A stretch of 50,558 nucleotides of DNA, taken from positions 7,675 to 58,232 of the forward strand of contig PLEW01000184.1 in NCBI GenBank assembly GCA_003136555.1. The letters are read 5' to 3'. A program made the position numbers and the translations under genes. How positions within the stretch are numbered: position 1 is the first letter of the stretch; the number at the start of each line of letters is the position of its first letter. Of the stretch, positions 20,589 through 40,800 are shown piece after piece. Source of the stretch: Planctomycetota bacterium (lineage in GTDB: Bacteria; Planctomycetota; UBA11346). The notes below the pieces were generated by a model, which was not told the origin of the DNA, made no database searches, and saw only the letters and a list, made by a program, of their open reading frames with translations.

Positions 20589-21626
20589 TCAGCGATGGTC
20601 GGTGGTGACTTCCGATTTCGCGTGGACCAGGAACACGAAGGCGCAATAGCAGGCGACCAGGACCGCAGAACCCATCCACCAGGTCAGCGCCACGGCGAGA
20701 TTCTGGCTGCTAGCGGGCCCGACCGCAGCGTGCAGCGATGGAATGCCAGGCGTGGTCGATCGGAGCATGATGGGGAACTGCGCTGCTGCAGTCGACAGCA
20801 CCAGACTCCCCATCACCACAGCGCCGCCAGTGAAGGCGCTCCTGACCCGCTTGCGCACGATCCCGACCAGCAGCATGCCAGCCCCTGTGCACAGGCCCGC
20901 TAGTCCTATCCACGCCAAGGGCGATCGGGCCATGGCAGGGAAGAGTTCGCCCTCCAGTTCCGACGTCAGCACCGTGATCGGCACCAGGAGCAGGAGGGCT
21001 GCGATCCAGAGCCTGCGTCCCAGGGCTCCTGCCCGCGTCTGGACCGCCCCCGTGGTTGTCATCGCGACATAGCAGGCCCCATGCCCTGCCAGCGCGACCA
21101 TGGTGAAGATCCCGACGGGGATGGTATACCAGTCCAGCAGCCCGACCGCACCCTGGACGCCGAAATCCGTGAACAGCGGCAGCGAGAATTGCCCATGTCC
21201 ATCGAGCGGGACGCCGCGGATGACATTGCCAGCGGTAATGCCGATCAGGGCGGCCAGGGTCATGCTGGAGAGCCACAGGACGCCATCCCACGCGGACGAC
21301 CAGAGCGCATCATCGATCCAGTGGCGGACCTCCAGCGAGACACCGCGGAGGATCAAGGCCCACAGGAGCATGAAGAAGGCGAGATAGAATCCCGCGAATG
21401 CCGCTGCATAGATGGCAGGGAAGGACAGGAACAAGGTGCCACCCCAGGCGACCAGCCACACCTCATGGAGGCTCCACGACATGCCGAGAGAGCGCAGGAC
21501 CAGGTGCCGCTCCTCGCGATCAGAGCCGATGGCGAAGAGCGTCATGCCGGCGCCGATGTTCCAGCCGTCCATGATGAGATAGGCCGACAGCATCAACGCC
21601 AGCATGGCATACCAGGCTTCAGCCAT
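20589..21626 (-). CDS. cydB: Cytochrome bd-type quinol oxidase subunit II
   Basis: 345 residues with about nine hydrophobic segments. Family marks are LMLSAYLIMDGWNIGAGMT at the N terminus, SWSLHEVWLVAWGGTLFLSFP, GNVIRGVPLDGHGQFSLPLF and the C-terminal PASSQNLAVALTWWMG. CydB pairs with CydA to form the high-affinity oxidase that reduces oxygen to water with quinol electrons. The start has GGAG 7 nt upstream, and the coding sequence overlaps the end of cydA by 8 nt. It is the last gene of the acnA-fumC-cydAB cluster; no cydX-like small gene follows that I can support. Confidence 0.93.
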   Translation of the reverse strand: MAEAWYAMLALMLSAYLIMDGWNIGAGMTLFAIGSDREERHLVLRSLGMSWSLHEVWLVAWGGTLFLSFPAIYAAAFAGFYLAFFMLLWALILRGVSLEVRHWIDDALWSSAWDGVLWLSSMTLAALIGITAGNVIRGVPLDGHGQFSLPLFTDFGVQGAVGLLDWYTIPVGIFTMVALAGHGACYVAMTTTGAVQTRAGALGRRLWIAALLLLVPITVLTSELEGELFPAMARSPLAWIGLAGLCTGAGMLLVGIVRKRVRSAFTGGAVVMGSLVLSTAAAQFPIMLRSTTPGIPSLHAAVGPASSQNLAVALTWWMGSAVLVACYCAFVFLVHAKSEVTTDHR

Positions 21627-22989
21627 GTGGTGCTCCAGGAAGGGGTATGCGCGAGGGGCAGTCCTCGGTTGAACGAGGACCGCAGAGGATCATTCGGCCG
21701 ACCAGTGCCAGATAGAGGACTCCGAGGACGGCATACAGGCCTGTGAACCCGATCAGGGTGAACAGGACCGTTCCTGGTCGGACCAGGGGGCTCAGTCCAT
21801 CATCGGTGCGCATCAGCCCATAGACGATCCACGGTTGCCGGCCGAGCTCGGCGGTCAGCCAGCCGGCCGTGGTGGCGATATAGGGGAACGGGAACGAGAG
21901 CAGGAGCGTCCACAGGAGCCAGCGGCAGGAGAGGAGCCGACCGCGCAGATGCTGGACCAGCGCCAGGCCCATGATGACGATGAACAGCGTTCCGAGACCG
22001 ACCATGATGTGGAACGCATAGTAGATCAGTGCGATGTTCGTCGGCCATTGGTCGAGCGGAAATGCCAAGAGACCGCGTACCCGGCCATGGAACGACCCGG
22101 TGGCCAGGTAGCTCAATACACCCGGCAGGGCGATGGGATTGTCGATGCGGCGCCTCTCGACATCGGGCTGGCCGATGATGGTGATCCTCGCCGACGTGCC
22201 GCTGTCGAAGCGCCCCTCCATGGCGGCGAGGGCCGGCTCCTGGTGGTATGCCACCTGCTTGGCCTGGGCATCACCTGTCGGATACGCGACGAGCAGCGCG
22301 GACGCCAATCCAACCGCGGTACCGCATGCCAGGCAGATGCGGGCATGCTCGGCGAAGGTGCCGCGCAGTGCGTACAGTGCGCCGACCGCTGCGACGACGA
22401 AGGATCCGGTGACCATGGCGGCGGCCATGGTGTGGGCGTACATCACCAGAGCCCATGGATTGAGCAGATAGCTGGAGAAATCGCCGATGTGCAGCGTGCC
22501 ATCGGGGGCGGTCGCGTATCCGGCCGGATGCTGCATGAAAGCGTTGGTGACGAGGATGAAATAGCCGGAGAGCCAGCTGCCAAGCAAGACCAGGAAGGCG
22601 ACGAGCAGGTTCACCCGAGGGCTCAGTCGCCGCTCGCCGGCGACCAGGATGCCGACGAAGGCGCTCTCCAGGAAGAACGCGATCATCCCCTCCATCGCCA
22701 AGGTCTGGCCGACGACTCCGCCTGCATAGGCGGAGAACGCCGACCAGTTCGTGCCGAACTGGAACTCCATGGGGATGCCGGTGACTACGCCGGCAGCGAA
22801 GGAGATGCCGAAGAACTTGGTCCAGAATCGCGCGGCGGTGCGGGAGTGGTCGTCGTCATGACGCAGCGCCCGCCATTTCCACCAGACCAGGAATGGCGCC
22901 AGCCCCATGGTGAGCTGCGGGAACAGGTAATGGTAGGTGATGGTGAAGCCGAACTGGAGACGGCTCCAGAAGGCGATGTCGTCAGGCAT
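21619..22989 (-). CDS. cydA: Cytochrome bd-type quinol oxidase subunit I
   Basis: 456 residues, the short-Q-loop form. Haem ligands can be placed by alignment to the E. coli enzyme: His20 in TITYHYLFPQLTMG (b595), His186 in MYAHTMAAAMVTGSF and Met329 in FHIMVGLG (b558), with Glu100 and Glu108 in AMEGMIAFFLESAF for the proton path. WLTAELGRQPWIVYG (378-391) is the conserved GRQPW signature. The Q loop is near 245-265 (YHQEPALAAMEGRFDS). The start has GGAGG 10 nt upstream. The subunit binds quinol on the periplasmic side and would support respiration at low oxygen. It lies 102 nt downstream of fumC. Confidence 0.93.
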   Translation of the reverse strand: MPDDIAFWSRLQFGFTITYHYLFPQLTMGLAPFLVWWKWRALRHDDDHSRTAARFWTKFFGISFAAGVVTGIPMEFQFGTNWSAFSAYAGGVVGQTLAMEGMIAFFLESAFVGILVAGERRLSPRVNLLVAFLVLLGSWLSGYFILVTNAFMQHPAGYATAPDGTLHIGDFSSYLLNPWALVMYAHTMAAAMVTGSFVVAAVGALYALRGTFAEHARICLACGTAVGLASALLVAYPTGDAQAKQVAYHQEPALAAMEGRFDSGTSARITIIGQPDVERRRIDNPIALPGVLSYLATGSFHGRVRGLLAFPLDQWPTNIALIYYAFHIMVGLGTLFIVIMGLALVQHLRGRLLSCRWLLWTLLLSFPFPYIATTAGWLTAELGRQPWIVYGLMRTDDGLSPLVRPGTVLFTLIGFTGLYAVLGVLYLALVGRMILCGPRSTEDCPSRIPLPGAPHG

Positions 22990-23091
22990 CGTGGTGCTGT
23001 CCTCCGCCTTCGCCGTGGTTGCGCCTGGGCATCCCGGGGTTTGGATGGCGGGTGGCCGCTCGGGGCGAGATGCCGGGTGAGGACGTCGGAC

Positions 23092-24531
23092 TCATGGCCG
23101 CTTGGCGGGACCGAGCATATCCTGCGGACGCACCCAGAGATCGAAGTCGGTTGCGGTAACGTGCCCAGAGGCGATCGCAGCCTCCCTGAGCGAGGTGCCC
23201 GTGCGGTACGCCTGTCCGGCGATCTCGGCAGAACGATCATAGCCAAGGTGCGCCGAGAGGGCCGTGACCAGCATCAGGGAGCGTTCCAGGAGTTCGGCGA
23301 TGTGCCTACGGTCGGCTGCGATGCCGCGGGCGCAGAACCGCTCGAAGGCAATCATGGAGTCGGACAGCAGACGTACGCTCTGGAGGAAGGCATTGGCGAT
23401 CAGCGGCTTGCAGGCATTCAGCTCGAAATTCCCCGAGGCTCCGCACAGGCCGATGGCCAGATCGTTGGCCATGATCTGGAAGCAGACCATGATCATCGCT
23501 TCGCACTGGGTGGGATTGACCTTCCCGGGCATCATCGAGCTGCCAGGCTCATTCGGCGGTAGCGTGATCTCGCCCAGGCCGGAACGTGGACCGGAGGCCA
23601 GCCAGCGGACATCATTGGCGATCTTGATGAGGGCTGTTGCCAGCGTCTTGAGCGCTCCATGCGCAGACACCAGGGCATCGTGGGCGGCGATGGCGGAGAA
23701 GGCATTGCTTGCCCGTCGAAGCGGCAAGCCCATGCGGAGGGAGAGCGCGGAGATGACCCGCTCCGCAAATCCGACGCAGGTATTGAAGCCGGTCCCCACG
23801 GCAGTGCCACCGAGGGGCAGCTCGAGGAGCGGGTCGATGACCCGGTTGATCGCATGCTCGGCGAACAGGAGCTGCGCCGCATAGCCGGAGAACTCCTGGC
23901 CGAGCGTCATGGGGATGGCATCCTGCAGATGGGTTCGCCCGATCTTGATGATGCCTGCGAAGGCATCGGCATGGCCCGCCATGGTCGCGTGCAGGCAGCG
24001 TAGGGCTGGCAGCACACGATGGGTGACGCCTAGGCTGGCGGACACATGCATGGCCGTGGGGACGACATCATTGGAGGATTGCCCCAGATTGACGTCGTCG
24101 TTGGGATGCACCAGACGCCCCATGCCACGTTGTCCACCGAGCAGTTCCGAGGAGCGATTGGCGATCACTTCGTTGATGTTCATGTTCGTCTGCGTACCCG
24201 ACCCACTCTGCCAGACCGAGAGCGGGAACTCGTCAGGATGCAATCCCCCCAGGATCTCCTCAGCAGCGTGGGCGATGGCATCGGCTTTGAGGCGATCGAG
24301 CAGGCCGAGATCGCTGTTGGCCGCAGCGCACTCAGCCTTGATGGCAGCCAGGGCGGCGATGATTTCGCGCGGCATGACTTCGACTGAGATGCGGAAATGC
24401 TCGATGGCACGCTGAGTCTGCGCTCCCCACATCCTCTCCATCGGCACATCGATATCGCCGAAGGAATCACGCTCACATCGGGTGGACGCGGATTTCACCT
24501 CAGGTGCTACGATGCCATCGTTGCGAGTCAT
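23092..24531 (-). CDS. fumC: Class II fumarate hydratase
   Basis: 479 residues, iron-independent homotetrameric fumarase that interconverts fumarate and malate in the TCA cycle. The superfamily signature [11 protein letters not shown] is at 330-340, and the substrate-binding [18 protein letters not shown] (110-127) and HPNDDVN are intact, as is GRTHLQDA with its catalytic His201. About 20 extra residues precede the usual N terminus. The ATG at 24531 overlaps the aconitase stop by one base (TGATG); a GTG at 24534 is possible. Choice of the oxygen-stable class II enzyme beside an Fe-S aconitase is noteworthy. Confidence 0.95.
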
Positions 24532-27389
24532 CACTTCAGGACCTCGCGCAGCGCATATGGCAGGATGCCGCCATGGCGGAAGTACTCCACCTCGATCGGG
24601 GTGTCGATGCGTAGGCGCACGGACATGGTGTGCCTCCTGCCGTCTGCCCTGGTGATCACCAGATCCAGGTCCTGGAGTGGACGCAGGCCCTCCTCCGGCA
24701 CCATCAGGTCGAAGAGCTCATCGCCGATGATCGGAATGGTGCCGAGGTGCTCGCCATCCTTGAACTGCAGGGGCAATACACCCATGCCCACCAGGTTGGA
24801 GCGGTGGATGCGCTCGAAGCTGCGTGCCACGACCGCAGCCACGCCCAGCAGGCGCGTCCCCTTTGCAGCCCAATCGCGGCTCGATCCGGTACCGTACTCC
24901 TCCCCGGCGAATACCAGGGAGGGTATGCCCTTGGCGGCATACTCCATGGCGGCATCGTAGATCGGGAGGATTCGTCCACTGGGCTGCGCGAGCGTACGGG
25001 CGCCGCTCACGGCGGCACCGCCATCGCCTGGGGGGAGCATGAGATTGCGGATGCGCGCATTGGCGAAGGTGCCTCGCACCATGACCTCGTGGTTGCCACG
25101 GCGCGATCCGTAGCTGTTGAAGTCCGCGGGGGCCACGCCGATCTTGAGGAGATAGCGCCCGGCGGGCGAGGCGGGATCGATCGCCCCAGCCGGGCTGATG
25201 TGGTCGGTGGTCACGGAATCGCCGAGCAGGGCCAGCGCGCGTGCACCACGGATGACCGGGAGTGACGGAGCCGCAAGGGCGAAATGCTCGAAGAAGGGCG
25301 GCTCCGCGATGTAGGACGACGTCTCCCAGGCATAGACCGCCCCGACAGGGGCGGGAATGGCATTCCACAGCAGGTTTCCCTGTGCGAGATCGCGGTAGCG
25401 GGCGCGGTAGACGGCGGGATCATGGGCGTAGTGCATCACGGAGGCGATCTCCTCCGTAGTCGGCCATAGCTCACGCAGGAAGACGGGCTGGCCATCGGTG
25501 CCGATCCCGAGCGGCTCGCTGTCGAGATCGATGAGGACACGTCCCGCAATGGCGAAGGCCACCACCAGTGGCGGGCTCATCAGGAAATTGGCTTGGATGC
25601 TGGGGTGGATGCGGGCCTCGAAATTGCGGTTGCCTGAGAGCACCGCAGCGCACACCAGCTGGTGCTTGGCGATGGCCTCCTCGATGAGCGGTGGAAGGGG
25701 TCCGGAATTGCCGATGCAGGTAGTGCATCCGTAGGCGGTGATCCAGAAGCCGAGCTGCTCCAGGTACGGCAGCAATCCTGCATCCTGGAGGTAGGTGGCG
25801 ACCACCCGCGAGCCAGGCGCCAGCGAGGTCTTCACCCGAGGACCGACCGTCAGTCCCCGTTCCACCGCCTTCTTCGCCAGCAGGCCTGCGGCCAGCATGA
25901 CTCCCGGATTGGAGGTGTTGGTGCACGAGGTGATGGCTGCAATCAGGACATCGCCATGGCCGATATCCAGCGCCCCAATGCGGGGATCTGCAGGAGATGC
26001 CGTTACGGCATCGACGGTGACGGGCACTTCGGCCATCTCGGCTTCATTGCGATTCTTGGTGTCGAGCGCCCTGGCCGGTCCCGGCGATGCGGGGAGCGGG
26101 ATGGAGGCACGGGACGCCTGGGACGGTCCGCGGGAGGCATCCCCGATCGGATGGCGGCGTGCTGGGTCCAGGGGGGACTTGCCAAAGCCATTCTCGACGA
26201 GAGGCGCAATCAATTGGCTGAGGAAGCGCTCCTTCACCTCGCCTATCGGCATGCGATCCTGCGGACGGCGGGGGCCCGCCATGTTCGGCACCACGCTGGA
26301 AAGATCCAGTTCGACGACGGCGCTGTAATCGATCGTTCCCGGATGCGGCATGCCGAACAGGCCTTGCGCCCTCAGGTAGGCGCTCAGCGCGGCGATGTCC
26401 TCGGGATCGCGCCCGGTGGCGGTGAGATAGTCGAGCGTCTGTCCATCTGCCGGGAAGAAGCCCATGGTTGCGCCGTACTCAGGCGCCATGTTGCTGACCG
26501 TGGCACGATCGGGGACCGACAGCGCCGCAGCGCCTGCGCCGAAGCATTCGACGAATTTGCCGACGACATTGATGGCGCGAAGGAATTCGGTCATGTGCAG
26601 CACCAGATCGGTCGAGGTCGTTCCCGCCGGCAAGGCGCCGTGGAGATGGACACCGACCACATCTGGCATCAGGAAGTAGAGCGGTTGGCCGAGCATCGCC
26701 GCCTCGGCTTCGATGCCACCGACGCCCCAGCCGACCACGCCCAGCCCGTTTATCATGGTGGTATGGGAATCGGTTCCGACGACGGTGTCGGGATAGTAGA
26801 GCCCGTCGCGCTGCCACAGCGGCCGTGACAGGTGCTCGAGATTGACCTGATGGACAATGCCGATGCCGGGAGGGATTATGGAAAAGTCGCGGAATGCCTG
26901 CATACCCCACTTTATGAAGCGGTAGCGCTCATGGTTGCGCTGGAATTCCAGCCCCAGATTGAGGTCGAGCGCCGCCGCCGAGTTGTAGTGGTCGACCTGA
27001 ACGGAATGATCGATCACCATATCCACCGGTATCCGCGGCGCGATCAATGCGCCATCCCGCCCCAGGCGCATCGCTGCGCAACGCATCGCGGCAAGATCGC
27101 ACAGCAGCGGCACCCCGGTGAAATCCTGAAGCAGGATCCGCGATACGACGAAGGGGATCTCGGTGGCGCGAATGGCCGTCGGCTGCCAGCTCGCAAGCTG
27201 CTTGATATGCTCTCTTGTCACCCTCACGTCATCGCGACAGCGCAGGATCGATTCCAGGATGATGCGCAAGGATATCGGCATGCGCGCCAGCCCAGCGAAT
27301 CCGGCGCGTTCGAGTGCGGGCAGGGAATGGAACCTGCCGGTGCGACCGGACGAGATGGCGAATTCCTGGAGAGTGTCCGGAAGATCCAT
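24531..27389 (-). CDS. acnA: Aconitate hydratase A
   Basis: 952 residues from the ATG at 27389, which aligns with the usual AcnA N terminus; the frame is open 53 codons further upstream without coding character. The enzyme isomerises citrate to isocitrate with a [4Fe-4S] cluster. Cluster ligands are Cys489 in SCTNTSNP and Cys555 and Cys558 in [10 protein letters not shown]. Also seen are [39 protein letters not shown], and the swivel-domain [10 protein letters not shown] with [19 protein letters not shown]. Between the substrate domains there is an insert of about 60 residues, Pro/Ser/Arg-rich (about 405-470), that makes the protein longer than the usual 890. It heads a cluster with fumC and cydAB. 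Confidence 0.95.
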
Positions 27390-27433
27390 GCGTGAGCATC
27401 CGATGAGCCGCGCTGATGTGAGCGGATCCTGAA

Positions 27434-27473
27434 GAATCGGCGGGGGGGGGATGCACCCTGTCCTCGCCGATTC
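27434..27473 (-). terminator. Hairpin between dps and acnA
   Basis: A 9-bp perfect inverted repeat, GAATCGGCG (27434-27442) and CGCCGATTC (27465-27473), can be extended inward with G-C and G-T pairs. It lies just past the dps stop, and on the minus strand TTCAGG follows. A tract of nine G residues (27442-27450) sits in the loop side. It probably separates dps from the acnA cluster. Confidence 0.5.
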
Positions 27474-27505
27474 GCGTCTTTTGCTGCCGCTTCCCGTCCA
27501 GGGGT

Positions 27506-28027
27506 TTAGTTCCTGGACTGGTGATGCGCTTCGATGAACCACAGCCATTTATCGATGCCGCGCGACACCTCGGTGAAGACATCAGCGGTGTCGGCATCGT
27601 CCAGATCGTTCGCCACGCTGATCGATGTGCGCACTTCACCTCCGAATGCGGCAAGCGCCTTCGCCACGGCAACCACATGGGCGCTGCCATCGGAGATCCC
27701 GAGCGGAAATTCATCAAGACGGGTGCGTGCCGAGGACAGGCGTACGGTGCCTTCGGCGACACCACCCAGCTGGACGATCCGTTCGGCGATGGTGTCGACG
27801 TATCCGGTCACAGCCTGGTAGACCTCGTCGAAGAGCTTGTGGAGGCCGATGAAGTTGGGCCCTTTGACATTCCAGTGCGCCTGCTTCATCTGCATCTGCA
27901 GATCGATGGCATCTGCCAGGCGCCCATTCATGAGCGCGTTGAGATCCGCACGTTTGTCCTTGGGGATGGTGATGCCGGTCGCGTATGGCGGTGTCGTGGT
28001 TGCGATCGCCTGCTTTGGTGATGTCAT
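27506..28027 (-). CDS. dps: Dps ferritin-like DNA-protection protein
   Basis: 173 residues, a dodecameric mini-ferritin that oxidises iron with peroxide and shields DNA. The start at 28027 has GGAG 9 nt upstream. All intersubunit ferroxidase residues are present and, with this start, fall at the same numbers as in E. coli Dps: His51 in [11 protein letters not shown], His63, Asp67 in FDEVYQ, Asp78 and Glu82 in [12 protein letters not shown]. The N-terminal tail ([20 protein letters not shown]) is less Lys-rich than that of E. coli, so DNA binding is less certain. It is upstream of the acnA cluster on the same strand but separated by a terminator-like hairpin. Confidence 0.95.
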
Positions 28028-36062: not shown

Positions 36063-37544
36063 TCAGGGGTTGGCGATCTGCCCTGATTCCCGCCCGGGGA
36101 TGCGCGAGGTCAGCAGAGCGCGTGCTGCTGCGAGAGTCGCTTCGATGGGTGCCCGGCGGTAGTCCCATTGCTCATCCGGTCCAGGCAGCTTGATGAGCAT
36201 GGTGGCATTGGCCTCGAACAGCAGCACCTCGCCGTCGGCGCGGCAGAAGAAATCCATGCCGCCATAGTCCAGGTCGAGGACGTCCATGATGCGCTCCAGG
36301 CTTGCGCTCGCACGCGGACCAAGGACGCGCGGCATATCGGTGAGGAATGCCGCCTCCTCCGCCTGATGCGCCGGGTTGCCTTTCATCTGCGAGCTGAAGT
36401 AGTGCACCTTCCAGGTGCTGGAGATCGCCAGATGGAGCGGGCGGAGGCGTCGATCGATGCACATCACCCGGTATTTGCGCGTCAGGCCATCCTCACACCG
36501 GGCATCCAGGAACTCCATGATGAGCAGCTGTGCACCCGGTAAACGAGACACCGCGGCCGCGAGCTCGGCCGAAGATTCGACGCGCACGAAATGCTGCCCG
36601 TTCTGGTAGCCGGGGCTGCGCACCAGGAGCGGGAAGGCGAAACCCATGTCGGCGAGCAAAGTGGCGGCATGCGCTGCCTGCACGTCGCTGCGCGCGAGGA
36701 GGGCCATGCGCGGTGTGGTCACACCGGCGATATTCCGGAGACGGGCGGCATTATCGAGGCGACTGGTCTTGAGGACCGCCGAGGGACGGTTGATGACCGG
36801 TGCCGACGTCCCCGCCAGCAGGGCGGTCGCCCGGATCAGGGCGGGACGGCAGCTGTCCGCGTCACTGATGGCATTGAAGACCAGTGCATGCGGCGGCAAC
36901 GGCTGATCCTCAGCCGAATACTCGACCGCCAGGCTGGTCGCCCGGAAGACGCTCCGGTCAACCAGTGGTCGCCATGGCAGCGTACCGCAGATGGAGGAGG
37001 TCAGCACCAGGATCTCGGTCGCCGGGCCGGAGCCGATATAGGGCCAGTGCTCGAGGGGCTGCTGCGCATAGGCCAGATCACGATGGTGACGGGCGAGCGC
37101 CGCATTGCCGTGATGCTGGAACAGCACCGCGAGGCCCTGATGGGCCTTGATGTGTCCTGGATCGAGCTTCAGGGCCGACTGGTAGAGGACCAGCGATGAG
37201 GCGTAATGCTGGCAGTAGAAGAGCAGGTTGGCGAGATTGGCATAGGCGACCGGGGTCTGGGGCTGGGCGGCGATGGCAGCGGTGTAGGCGGCACGGGCAG
37301 CGGAAATCGAGCCGTTCTCGTAGAGCAGGGTGCCGAGATTATTGAGGGTGGCGTAGTGCGTCGGAGCTCGGGCCAGGATATCCTGGTAGGCCTCCGCCGC
37401 CTGCTTCGTCTGACCGAGCAGGGCGAGAAGGTCCGCTCGCTCGCGACGGGGAGTGAGGTCATCCGGTTGCACGGCGATGCGCGCTTCCAGCTGGTGCAGC
37501 GCACGCTCTGGCGAAAAGCCGGCATCGGCGTCCTGACCGCTCAT
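36063..37544 (-). CDS. TPR/ATP-grasp fusion protein of unknown product
   Basis: 493 residues from the ATG at 37544; an in-frame ATG at 37625 would add 27 residues, and neither has a strong ribosome site. Residues about 12-160 are at least four tetratricopeptide repeats (ATLNNLGTLLYENGSISAAR, AYANLANLLFYCQHYASSLV, AHQGLAVLFQHHGNAALA). Residues about 175-275 look like a pre-ATP-grasp domain (ILVLTSSICGTLPWRP; HALVFNAISDAD). Residues about 280-485 form an ATP-grasp-like domain: FPLLVRSPGYQNGQHFVRV for the nucleotide loop, LLIMEFLDARCEDG, RKYRVMCIDRRL, and the metal site DYGGMDFF (Asp431) with VLLFEANATM (Glu444, Asn446). ATP-grasp enzymes ligate a carboxylate to an amine or thiol. The substrate is unknown; the TPR part suggests a protein partner or protein substrate. 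Confidence 0.78.
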   Translation of the reverse strand: MSGQDADAGFSPERALHQLEARIAVQPDDLTPRRERADLLALLGQTKQAAEAYQDILARAPTHYATLNNLGTLLYENGSISAARAAYTAAIAAQPQTPVAYANLANLLFYCQHYASSLVLYQSALKLDPGHIKAHQGLAVLFQHHGNAALARHHRDLAYAQQPLEHWPYIGSGPATEILVLTSSICGTLPWRPLVDRSVFRATSLAVEYSAEDQPLPPHALVFNAISDADSCRPALIRATALLAGTSAPVINRPSAVLKTSRLDNAARLRNIAGVTTPRMALLARSDVQAAHAATLLADMGFAFPLLVRSPGYQNGQHFVRVESSAELAAAVSRLPGAQLLIMEFLDARCEDGLTRKYRVMCIDRRLRPLHLAISSTWKVHYFSSQMKGNPAHQAEEAAFLTDMPRVLGPRASASLERIMDVLDLDYGGMDFFCRADGEVLLFEANATMLIKLPGPDEQWDYRRAPIEATLAAARALLTSRIPGRESGQIANP

Positions 37545-37844: not shown

Positions 37845-38207
37845 ATGAAATTCCCGATCATCGGGCTCGACCGGCGCCTGTTCCGCTCCTTCCGCCGGCA
37901 GCTGGCGATGCGCAGCAGGGAGGCGCTCACCCTGTGGGGCGATGATCCCGGCATCATCGCCATCCGCGACCAGATCAGCGCCATAATCGCGCGGGATTTC
38001 TACTGGCCCAACCGCAATTTCATCCCCGACGACCCCTGTTCGGTGGTGATGTTCAATCCCCTGCCGCTCGCGGATACGCCACGGGTGATCAAGTACATCG
38101 AGAGCCAGGTCGGGCGGTCGGAAGCATTCAGCCAGCTCGCGACGCTGACGTACGGCGAGTTCATCGGCAAGCTCAACCGGGATCGGCAGCTGAGTTCGAC
38201 GCGCTAG
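37845..38207 (+). CDS. Hypothetical protein, 120 aa
   Basis: The stretch GDDPGIIAIRDQISAIIARD, FYWPNRNFIPDDPCSVVMFN and PRVIKYIESQVGRSEAFS reads as a folded acidic/hydrophobic protein rather than a shadow frame. The start at 37845 (MKFPIIGLDRRLFRSFRRQL) is uncertain; an in-frame ATG at 37782 adds 21 residues. No signal peptide or membrane helix is seen, and no family is recognised. It runs divergently from the TPR/ATP-grasp gene. Confidence 0.5.
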   Translation: MKFPIIGLDRRLFRSFRRQLAMRSREALTLWGDDPGIIAIRDQISAIIARDFYWPNRNFIPDDPCSVVMFNPLPLADTPRVIKYIESQVGRSEAFSQLATLTYGEFIGKLNRDRQLSSTR

Positions 38208-38520: not shown

Positions 38521-40800
38521 ATGACTGATCCCGAGAACAAGGTCTTCCTGCAGCTGTGCACGGCGAAGCGCCTGATCGATGCGGCGATGGCGAAGAACAT
38601 CTATCGCCGCAGCAAGGAGACCGGAAGGGCTTCCGCCGACATCCTGGTCGAGATGGGGGTCATTACCGCGCACACCGTCAAGGCGCTGCAGCCCGAGGTG
38701 GAGCGCGCCATGTCACCCAAGGCGATCGGGGGCTTCCGCATCGTGCGCCCCCTGGGGCAGGGCGGCATGGGGACGGTCTATCTCGCCGAGCAGCTGTCGC
38801 TCAAGCGCGAGGTGGCGCTCAAGATCATCGCGCCGCACATCGCAGCCGACCACGATGCGGCTGAGCGGTTCCTGCGCGAAGCGCGCATCGCCGGCAAGCT
38901 CAACAACCCCAACATCGTCAGCATCATCGATGTCGGGCAGGATCAGGGGACCTTGTACATGGCGCTGGAATTCGTCGGCGGCGGCGATGCCGCGCGGCTG
39001 GCCGAGCGCTTCAATGGCATCCTCCCGCAGGCGCGCGCGCTCGAGATCCTGATCGATTGCTGCAATGGGCTGCAGGCCCTGTTCGAAGCACGCCTCATCC
39101 ATCGCGATCTCAAGCCGGCAAACATCTTCATCACCACCGATGGGGTCGCCAAGCTTGCGGATCTCGGCCTGGCGCGCGGCGAGCAGGGCGATGACCGCAT
39201 GACCGTTACCGGCTTTGCCGTCGGCACCCCGGCGTACATGAGCCCAGAGCAGGCCGGTGGGGAAGCCACCCTCGATATCCGCTCTGACATCTACTCCTTG
39301 GGCGCGACCCTGTTCACCCTGGTCACCGGCCGCAAGCCCTTCGAGGGCAATGGCCCCTTCGCCATCGCTGCCAAGGTGCTGACCCAGACGGTCCCCGATC
39401 CGCGATCGGTCAACCCGCAGGTCGCCCCTGCGGTCGCGGAGCTGATCCAGCGGGCGATGGCGAAAGCTCCAGACGAGCGCTTCCAGACCCCGCTCGCACT
39501 GCGCACCCAGGCCCTGGCGGTGCTGGACTCGCTGGGGCAGCGGAGCGCGTCCACCAGCAGCCACCGCGCTGCTGGTCCGGCAGGGGCGATCTCGGGGGTT
39601 ACGCCAACGACCGGTCCGACGACGATCCCGACCCAGAAACTGCGCACCGCGCTCAAGCGCCTGCGCTCAAGTGCCGCATCGGAATCGGCATGGCCGCGCA
39701 TCCTGCTCTCGGCGCTGGTGGTGGTCGTGGCGGCGGGCTTCGGCTGGATGGTGCTCACCCATGGCATGGCCGCCACGGCGGCACCGCGGGAGCATGTCCG
39801 CACCCCGCCTTCCGCTCCACCCCTCATCGCAGCGCCCCCGGCCCCTGTCGCGCCCCCAGCGGCGAAACCGGTCCCACCGTCACCGCCAGCAGAACCAGCA
39901 TCACCAGTGCCGCCACCAATCGCCGCCTGGCCCGCTCCGCCGAACGCCGTGGCTCCGGCAGCCCGATGGGCTCAGGGGCACGGCACGGATGCTTATGGCT
40001 CCTGGGCCGATCTGGCGATCGGCAGCCAGATCCAGCGTTTCCGCTGGATCCCGCCGGGGTCGTTCACCTACGGCAGCCCGAAGAGCGAGGTCGGCCATGA
40101 GGAAATGTGGGAAAAGCAGCGTCCGGTGACGTTCAGCCGCGGATTCTGGCTGGCCGACAGCCCGTGCACCCAGGCCGTGTACCAGGAGCTCACCGGCCTC
40201 ACTCCTGCGCGTTACCGAGGCGATGCCCAACTCCCGGTCACCAATGTCTCGATGGCTGATGCCGAGGCTTGCGCCGGCGCGCTCGCCCGACGGTATCCGG
40301 GTACGGTATTCCGCCTGCCGACCCGCTGCGAATGGCAATACGCCTGCCGTGCCGGGACCACGACCGTGTACTTCTTCGGCGACGATCCACACGGCATCGT
40401 TGCCTATGGCCAAGTTGCCGACCCGAGCACCTGGCCAGTCCCCGGCATGCCGGAAGCGCCACGGGGACCACGGAGCGACGAACACCCGGTACCTGTACGC
40501 CACTTCAAGCCCAATCCCTGGGGGCTCTATGACATGCTCGGCAATGTCTGCGTATGGTGCTATGGACGCTTCAAGCTGCCGGATGGAGCGCTCGTCGATC
40601 CGGAAGCGGATGATGTCGCCGACGAACGCATGGGCCATATCCGCGGTGGCAACTACTGGTCATCGCCCAAGAGTTTCCGTGCCGCAGAAGGTGGCTACAT
40701 CAGCCCCGAGGGGCGCAATGATGACATCGGCTTCCGCCTGGTGATCCTCGGGGACGTACCTTCCCCTGCTGGGGCCAAGGACGTGGCTCCCGGCCACTGA
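38521..40800 (+). CDS. Ser/Thr protein kinase fused to an extracytoplasmic SUMF1/FGE-like domain
   Basis: 759 residues. A helical N-terminal segment (about 1-65, ILVEMGVITAHTVKALQPEV) precedes the kinase domain (about 72-335): GQGGMG (79-84), Lys101, HRDLKPAN (194-201), DLG (214-216) and TPAYMSPEQA. One membrane helix (about 393-413) follows, then a Pro/Ala-rich linker (421-481), and a SUMF1-like domain (about 505-748): FRWIPPGSFTYGSP, FRLPTRCEWQYACRAGT, NPWGLYDMLGNVCVWC, HIRGGNYWSSPKSFRAAEGG and DDIGFRLV. The copper-binding Cys pair of true FGE is absent, so this domain is more likely a ligand-binding or sensor module. Similar kinase-FGE fusions are known, for example chlamydial Pkn1. Apart from a palindrome upstream no regulation is visible. 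Confidence 0.9.
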   Translation: MTDPENKVFLQLCTAKRLIDAAMAKNIYRRSKETGRASADILVEMGVITAHTVKALQPEVERAMSPKAIGGFRIVRPLGQGGMGTVYLAEQLSLKREVALKIIAPHIAADHDAAERFLREARIAGKLNNPNIVSIIDVGQDQGTLYMALEFVGGGDAARLAERFNGILPQARALEILIDCCNGLQALFEARLIHRDLKPANIFITTDGVAKLADLGLARGEQGDDRMTVTGFAVGTPAYMSPEQAGGEATLDIRSDIYSLGATLFTLVTGRKPFEGNGPFAIAAKVLTQTVPDPRSVNPQVAPAVAELIQRAMAKAPDERFQTPLALRTQALAVLDSLGQRSASTSSHRAAGPAGAISGVTPTTGPTTIPTQKLRTALKRLRSSAASESAWPRILLSALVVVVAAGFGWMVLTHGMAATAAPREHVRTPPSAPPLIAAPPAPVAPPAAKPVPPSPPAEPASPVPPPIAAWPAPPNAVAPAARWAQGHGTDAYGSWADLAIGSQIQRFRWIPPGSFTYGSPKSEVGHEEMWEKQRPVTFSRGFWLADSPCTQAVYQELTGLTPARYRGDAQLPVTNVSMADAEACAGALARRYPGTVFRLPTRCEWQYACRAGTTTVYFFGDDPHGIVAYGQVADPSTWPVPGMPEAPRGPRSDEHPVPVRHFKPNPWGLYDMLGNVCVWCYGRFKLPDGALVDPEADDVADERMGHIRGGNYWSSPKSFRAAEGGYISPEGRNDDIGFRLVILGDVPSPAGAKDVAPGH

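Follow-up and report, generated by a model that had tools for sequence, protein, structure and literature searches.

What would a protein do in which a TPR array is joined to an enzyme domain that makes amide bonds? This question is raised by a gene in the 50,558-nt stretch of DNA analysed here (the window), which derives from a Planctomycetota bacterium (UBA11346; GCA_003136555.1, contig PLEW01000184.1, positions 7,675-58,232). A preliminary description of the gene had recognised TPRs, a pre-ATP-grasp-like region and an ATP-grasp core with the motifs DYGGMDFF and FEANATM, and had proposed that the product modifies another protein or a peptide. The features of the gene are as follows, where A7 denotes a nine-sequence alignment of the window protein with its genome relatives, which was also the shallow input for AlphaFold2.

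36063..37544, minus strand: coding sequence of the TPR-ATP-grasp protein with stop codon; 493 aa, ATG start
37065..37511, minus strand: TPR array, residues 12-160, ~4.5 repeats (Pfam TPR models and AlphaFold2 helices)
36645..37013, minus strand: pre-ATP-grasp-like region, residues 178-300, including linker residue R262 (strand/helix pattern in the model, with 160-214 at low confidence; R262 invariant in A7)
36102..36644, minus strand: ATP-grasp catalytic core, residues 301-481, with R309, G316, D347, K357, H371, E397, D431, E444 and N446 (invariant columns of A7; collinear with E. coli RimK; Foldseek)
36246..36269, minus strand: DYGGMDFF, residues 426-433, carrying the metal-binding Asp D431 (sequence, A7 and RimK alignment)
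36198..36218, minus strand: FEANATM, residues 443-449, with the ExN metal-binding motif E444/N446 (sequence, A7 and RimK alignment)

The 493-aa open reading frame is real, and chance is ruled out as its origin. Its GC content by codon position (69.6/48.6/78.9) is coding-like. The frame continues upstream to 791 aa; in this extension the GC pattern by codon position is flatter than in the 493-aa gene, and the alignment with a paralogue described below begins at the same MSG start. In the N-terminal half, several Pfam TPR models scored above their gathering cut-offs over residues 13-152 (best: TPR_17, E=1.2e-10), and AlphaFold2 folded residues 12-160 into nine helices with a pLDDT of mostly 80-94. 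The TPR proteins OGT and MamA were also among the PDB structures matched by the model in Foldseek. Peptides are common ligands of TPRs, and this half of the ligase most likely binds a partner protein.

The C-terminal domain is an ATP-grasp domain of the RimK/D-Ala-ligase-like kind, as indicated concordantly by family models, profile searches, AlphaFold2 and Foldseek. The NCBIfam model TIGR00768 (RimK family) matched residues 238-449 weakly (E=0.0027), with a score of 17.1 bits that lies far under the curated cut-off of 143.4 bits. A Pfam search with the window protein alone returned no ATP-grasp match, PF08443 not being reported; the paralogue, which is 59% identical, cleared the gathering cut-off of PF08443 (Pfam RimK) with 23.2 bits versus 21. 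When ligase-family profiles were compared with the PDB, almost all matches were ATP-grasp enzymes. The AlphaFold2 model had a mean pLDDT of 75.5, with 72% of the residues at a pLDDT >=70, and displayed a poorly predicted stretch at residues 160-214 followed by a mostly confident alpha/beta domain up to ~480. Foldseek searches of the PDB with this model retrieved D-Ala-D-Ala ligases, PsnB, RimK and ArgX at E-values of 1e-8 to 4e-7, the best Ddl structures at ~1e-8 identifying the fold as ATP-grasp. The TM-scores of these matches were modest for a query consisting of the whole two-half model, probably because this model holds two independent halves.

The active site of the window ligase is apparently intact. 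All residues named in the list above are invariant in A7, as is P305; they include the basic residue in the linker between the pre-ATP-grasp region and the core (R262) and the Asp and ExN metal ligands (D431, E444 and N446). The position of N446 is occupied by D or A in proteobacterial homologues. An hhalign comparison of the window family with E. coli RimK was collinear, with a score that was not significant (E=0.08); in it, R309 falls opposite the Lys of RimK, and the D..ExN site of RimK opposite D431/E444/N446. With the template of catalytic positions published for the superfamily (PMC4431377), R309, D431, E444 and N446 are assigned to these positions. The second Gly of the GxG loop is a His in both the window protein (NGQHF) and the paralogue (TGHHF); the loop is intact in proteobacterial homologues. 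The domain architecture given in the preliminary description, including both motifs, was borne out by the Pfam TPR matches, family profiles, AlphaFold2, Foldseek and the A7 residues.

A possible role for the ligase is indicated by its full-length paralogue (59% identity) on contig C137 of the same genome (G000:C137:40502-41959; L023 8991-10463). Identity amounts to 56% in the TPR part, 59% in the middle and 62% in the ATP-grasp part, and the pairwise NG86 dN/dS between the two copies is 0.33/0.90, or ~0.37. On C137 the ligase gene is followed in an operon by genes for a group II PLP decarboxylase and an uncharacterised protein, with neighbouring genes overlapping (L023 8991/8998 and 7553/7553). 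This contig is no obvious contaminant and belongs to the lineage, since a PntB-like protein encoded at its end is 90% identical to its counterpart in a genome of the same family. The decarboxylase belongs to PF00282 (E=1.8e-62), and aromatic-amino-acid decarboxylases are its closest PDB structures; an AlphaFold2 model of this protein alone reached a pLDDT of 35, and no reading was taken from it. The same trio, reordered as ligase, uncharacterised protein and decarboxylase, is present on plasmids of Rhizobium tumorigenes (L031) and R. rhododendri (L050). Decarboxylase homologues were present in 411 plasmid records, and the three that rank closest to the C137 enzyme are exactly those of the trio loci. 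The rhizobial ligase homologues are only ~25% identical, with TPRs that are degenerate at best. In R. tumorigenes the ligase has a C-terminal extension (DDDC...GHAVF...DPGS) that Pfam and NCBIfam did not recognise and that we read as papain-like. No decarboxylase was found beside the homologues in R. jaguaris, R. tropici, Cupriavidus and Paraburkholderia; the Paraburkholderia homologue is adjoined by SerC.

The third gene of the C137 operon encodes a protein of 493 aa for which Pfam, NCBIfam and the PDB gave no match or no meaningful one. Its family conserves the motifs SGTD, ETGSG, VDACQ or VDASQ, and TGSKF, which would resemble those of fold-type I PLP enzymes. Profile comparisons of the third protein with the decarboxylase and with SerC were not significant, so that the label "PLP enzyme" stays motif-based. 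Members of this family occur on 33 rhizobial plasmid records, and in S. medicae WSM419 and R. jaguaris their gene lies directly downstream of very large NRPS genes (L033:9980-11515, L034:9953-11449). Furthermore, in a distant member of the phylum (G090, L070:8958-11902) a homologue of the third protein adjoins a PF00282 enzyme of the S1P-lyase type, which matches solved S1P lyases in phmmer at E=1e-103.

The window copy of the ligase has a different setting. It is flanked by a melibiase-like/NPCBM protein and a kinase-FGE protein, and is opposite in orientation to both; the latter (38521-40800) is a single protein with a Ser/Thr protein kinase domain and an FGE-sulfatase (formylglycine-generating enzyme-like) domain. 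The window contains no homologue of the decarboxylase or of the third protein, and the whole genome holds one copy of the latter. As a possible partner, the preliminary description had pointed to a divergent gene for a 120-aa protein (37845-38207, plus strand). This gene is gene-like in its GC by codon position (57.5/45.0/88.3) and belongs to no recognised family. Since the sole match of its product among 21 other genomes (26% identity) is in a genome without the ligase, a partnership is not supported, and no conserved link between the two genes was found.

A partly syntenic region in G002, of the same genus, shares aconitase, fumarase and the kinase at 60-63% identity over the matched stretches, and the ligase is absent from this region and from G002 as a whole. 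In the window, genes for cytochrome bd oxidase subunits I and II, fumarase and aconitase are consecutive (20589-27548). None of the remaining 22 class genomes contains the ligase family (E<=1e-15), and a sample of 392 phylum genomes yielded only distant forms. Relatives of 25-30% identity are encoded in G296 and G208, two genomes from the same taxonomic family; the one in G296 has an N-terminal half that is repeat-like in appearance and was not called TPR by Pfam. A single-sequence contig scan for homologues gave TPR matches only, and the census outside the phylum covered plasmids. Close TPR-ATP-grasp relatives probably occur on proteobacterial chromosomes. Given the absence from the class and the merely distant forms in the phylum, horizontal acquisition is likely, and was then likely followed by duplication. 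The window copy is, judged from its sequence, a solitary and dispersed duplicate of the C137 ligase that has kept the catalytic set. A role as an anti-phage system was rejected, since PADLOC gave no match and neither phage records nor viral contigs contained a homologue.

Our best explanation, to which we give about an even chance, is that the window gene encodes an active ATP-dependent carboxylate-amine ligase with a TPR arm, a duplicate of the ligase of the decarboxylase operon, and that it belongs to a module building a small NRPS-independent amide or peptide. In ATP-grasp chemistry a carboxylate is phosphorylated and the acyl phosphate is condensed with an amine (PMC12568646). In the window ligase, the ATP-grasp half would use ATP and Mg to convert a carboxylate to its acyl phosphate, which it would then join to an amine; a partner protein, or a substrate bound to a protein, would be held by the TPR half. 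The amine, or else a beta-amino acid, would likely come from the group II PLP decarboxylase of the C137 operon. A precedent is provided by the biosynthesis of E-64, where an ATP-grasp ligase acts with amines from PLP decarboxylases (PMC12568646). The decarboxylase adjoining the C137 ligase suggests that here, too, the amine may be a decarboxylated amino acid, as in the E-64 clusters. The product of the C137 module would most likely be a small NRPS-independent amide or peptide metabolite, to which the window copy could contribute by a second coupling activity or by accepting another substrate. Because there is no decarboxylase or third-protein gene near the window copy and the genome has a single copy of the latter, the function would be shared by paralogy alone; that the window copy participates in the same pathway is thus suggested by homology only. 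More tentatively, and in our view somewhat improbably, ligase, PLP decarboxylase and third protein could form an undescribed NRPS-independent amide module exchanged between phyla, in which the TPR arm docks a partner or intermediate and the window gene is a second ligase extending the module.

Conceivably, the protein could instead be a RimK-like protein-modifying ligase, its TPRs picking a protein and its ATP-grasp domain adding amino acids to the terminus or to side chains. The similarity to the RimK family, the presence of RimK and ArgX among the Foldseek matches, the general tendency of TPRs to bind peptides and the solitary position of the window copy, as might befit a separate modifier, all speak for this idea. 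However, an amino-acid decarboxylase shares the operon of the paralogue and those of two rhizobial homologues, and the absence from the other 22 class genomes argues against a housekeeping target; we consider this alternative unlikely. A ribosomal precursor as the substrate, matured by the ligase in the manner of a graspetide or other RiPP, appears highly improbable. PsnB, a graspetide ligase, is indeed found by Foldseek, MvdD matches the window protein at E=0.27, and some graspetide loci have TPR proteins (PMC8939145), but PsnB is one of many ATP-grasp matches with similar scores, and the overlapping C137 genes leave no space between them for a precursor. The preliminary description had seen no precursor peptide nearby, and a pairwise small-ORF scan confirmed this also at related loci: across the eight loci compared, the only matches lay inside shared genes or were short and chance-like, and a common RiPP precursor was rejected on this ground. 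Modification of a protein or peptide by a RimK-like or graspetide-type enzyme, as originally proposed, is hence possible but not favoured, and with the operonic paralogue beside a PLP amino-acid decarboxylase, the synthesis of a small-molecule amide fits better than the maturation of a peptide.

Two further alternatives were considered. A ligase that puts amino acids on a surface polysaccharide or lipid is brought to mind by distant homologues in the phylum that adjoin glycosyltransferase-like and NeuB-like genes (L025, L053; by eye) and by a second Cupriavidus copy near glycosyltransferases. Those phylum relatives, however, have no TPR arm and share just 21-23% identity, and neither next to the window gene nor next to the C137 copy could a cluster of glycan genes be recognised, which makes this reading quite improbable. 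We give a slightly lower probability still to the view that the gene is a duplicate in decay, or one without catalysis that serves only as a scaffold. While its orphan location and the His in place of the second Gly of the GxG loop, seen in the window protein and the paralogue alike, would be compatible with such a state, the full ORF, the retention of all metal and ATP residues, the dN/dS of ~0.37 and the coding-like codon use argue against it.

The fold and chemistry of the proposed amide ligase are already known. It is like the RimK-like ligases (PF08443/TIGR00768; E. coli RimK, LysX/ArgX) in fold, motif order and D..ExN metal site, but differs from RimK in having a TPR array in front, an Arg (R309) where RimK has a Lys at the strand end, and an insertion with the conserved residues H371 and E397. 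With graspetide ligases (PsnB, MvdD) it has the ATP-grasp fold in common, whereas its loci have no detectable precursor peptide and the paralogue has PLP-type partner genes. The R2K/CDC123 clade consists of divergent ATP-grasp proteins, proposed to be protein modifiers, that have lost the basic residue of the linker, lack the G-loop motif and have an extra K/R in a loop (PMC4431377); in contrast, the window ligase keeps R262 and the rhizobial members keep GxG, which places the family outside this clade. The E-64 pathway likewise pairs a PLP decarboxylase able to supply the amine with an ATP-grasp amide ligase that stands alone and for which, according to the paper describing it, no sequence identity to any other characterised ATP-grasp enzyme could be detected (PMC12568646). 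That pathway is fungal, however, its ligase lacks TPRs, and in our case the decarboxylase adjoins the C137 paralogue and not the window copy. To our knowledge, the E-64 pathway has no third uncharacterised protein of the C137-operon family.

No description of the TPR-ATP-grasp fusion or of the three-gene neighbourhood was found in the open-access literature. The analysis makes a testable three-gene biosynthetic hypothesis out of a kind of gene whose annotation goes no further than "TPR protein" or "RimK family". It also opens a way into the enzyme-like family of the third protein, which is conserved, has no named domain and is carried by many rhizobial plasmids, next to NRPS genes in two cases that were inspected. 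The TPR docking arm of such a ligase, if it guides substrates, would be of use as a component in biocatalysis of amide bonds. Two other loci were also noted. On the plasmid of Cupriavidus EM10 (L071:8733-9982), a second ATP-grasp homologue is apparently split into two annotated hypothetical proteins and adjoins glycosyltransferase and ABC transporter genes; this plasmid also carries metal-resistance genes. At a contig end in G056 (L027:6569-7879), an ATP-grasp frame runs, by eye, into glucose-6-phosphate-dehydrogenase-like sequence, possibly at an assembly join.
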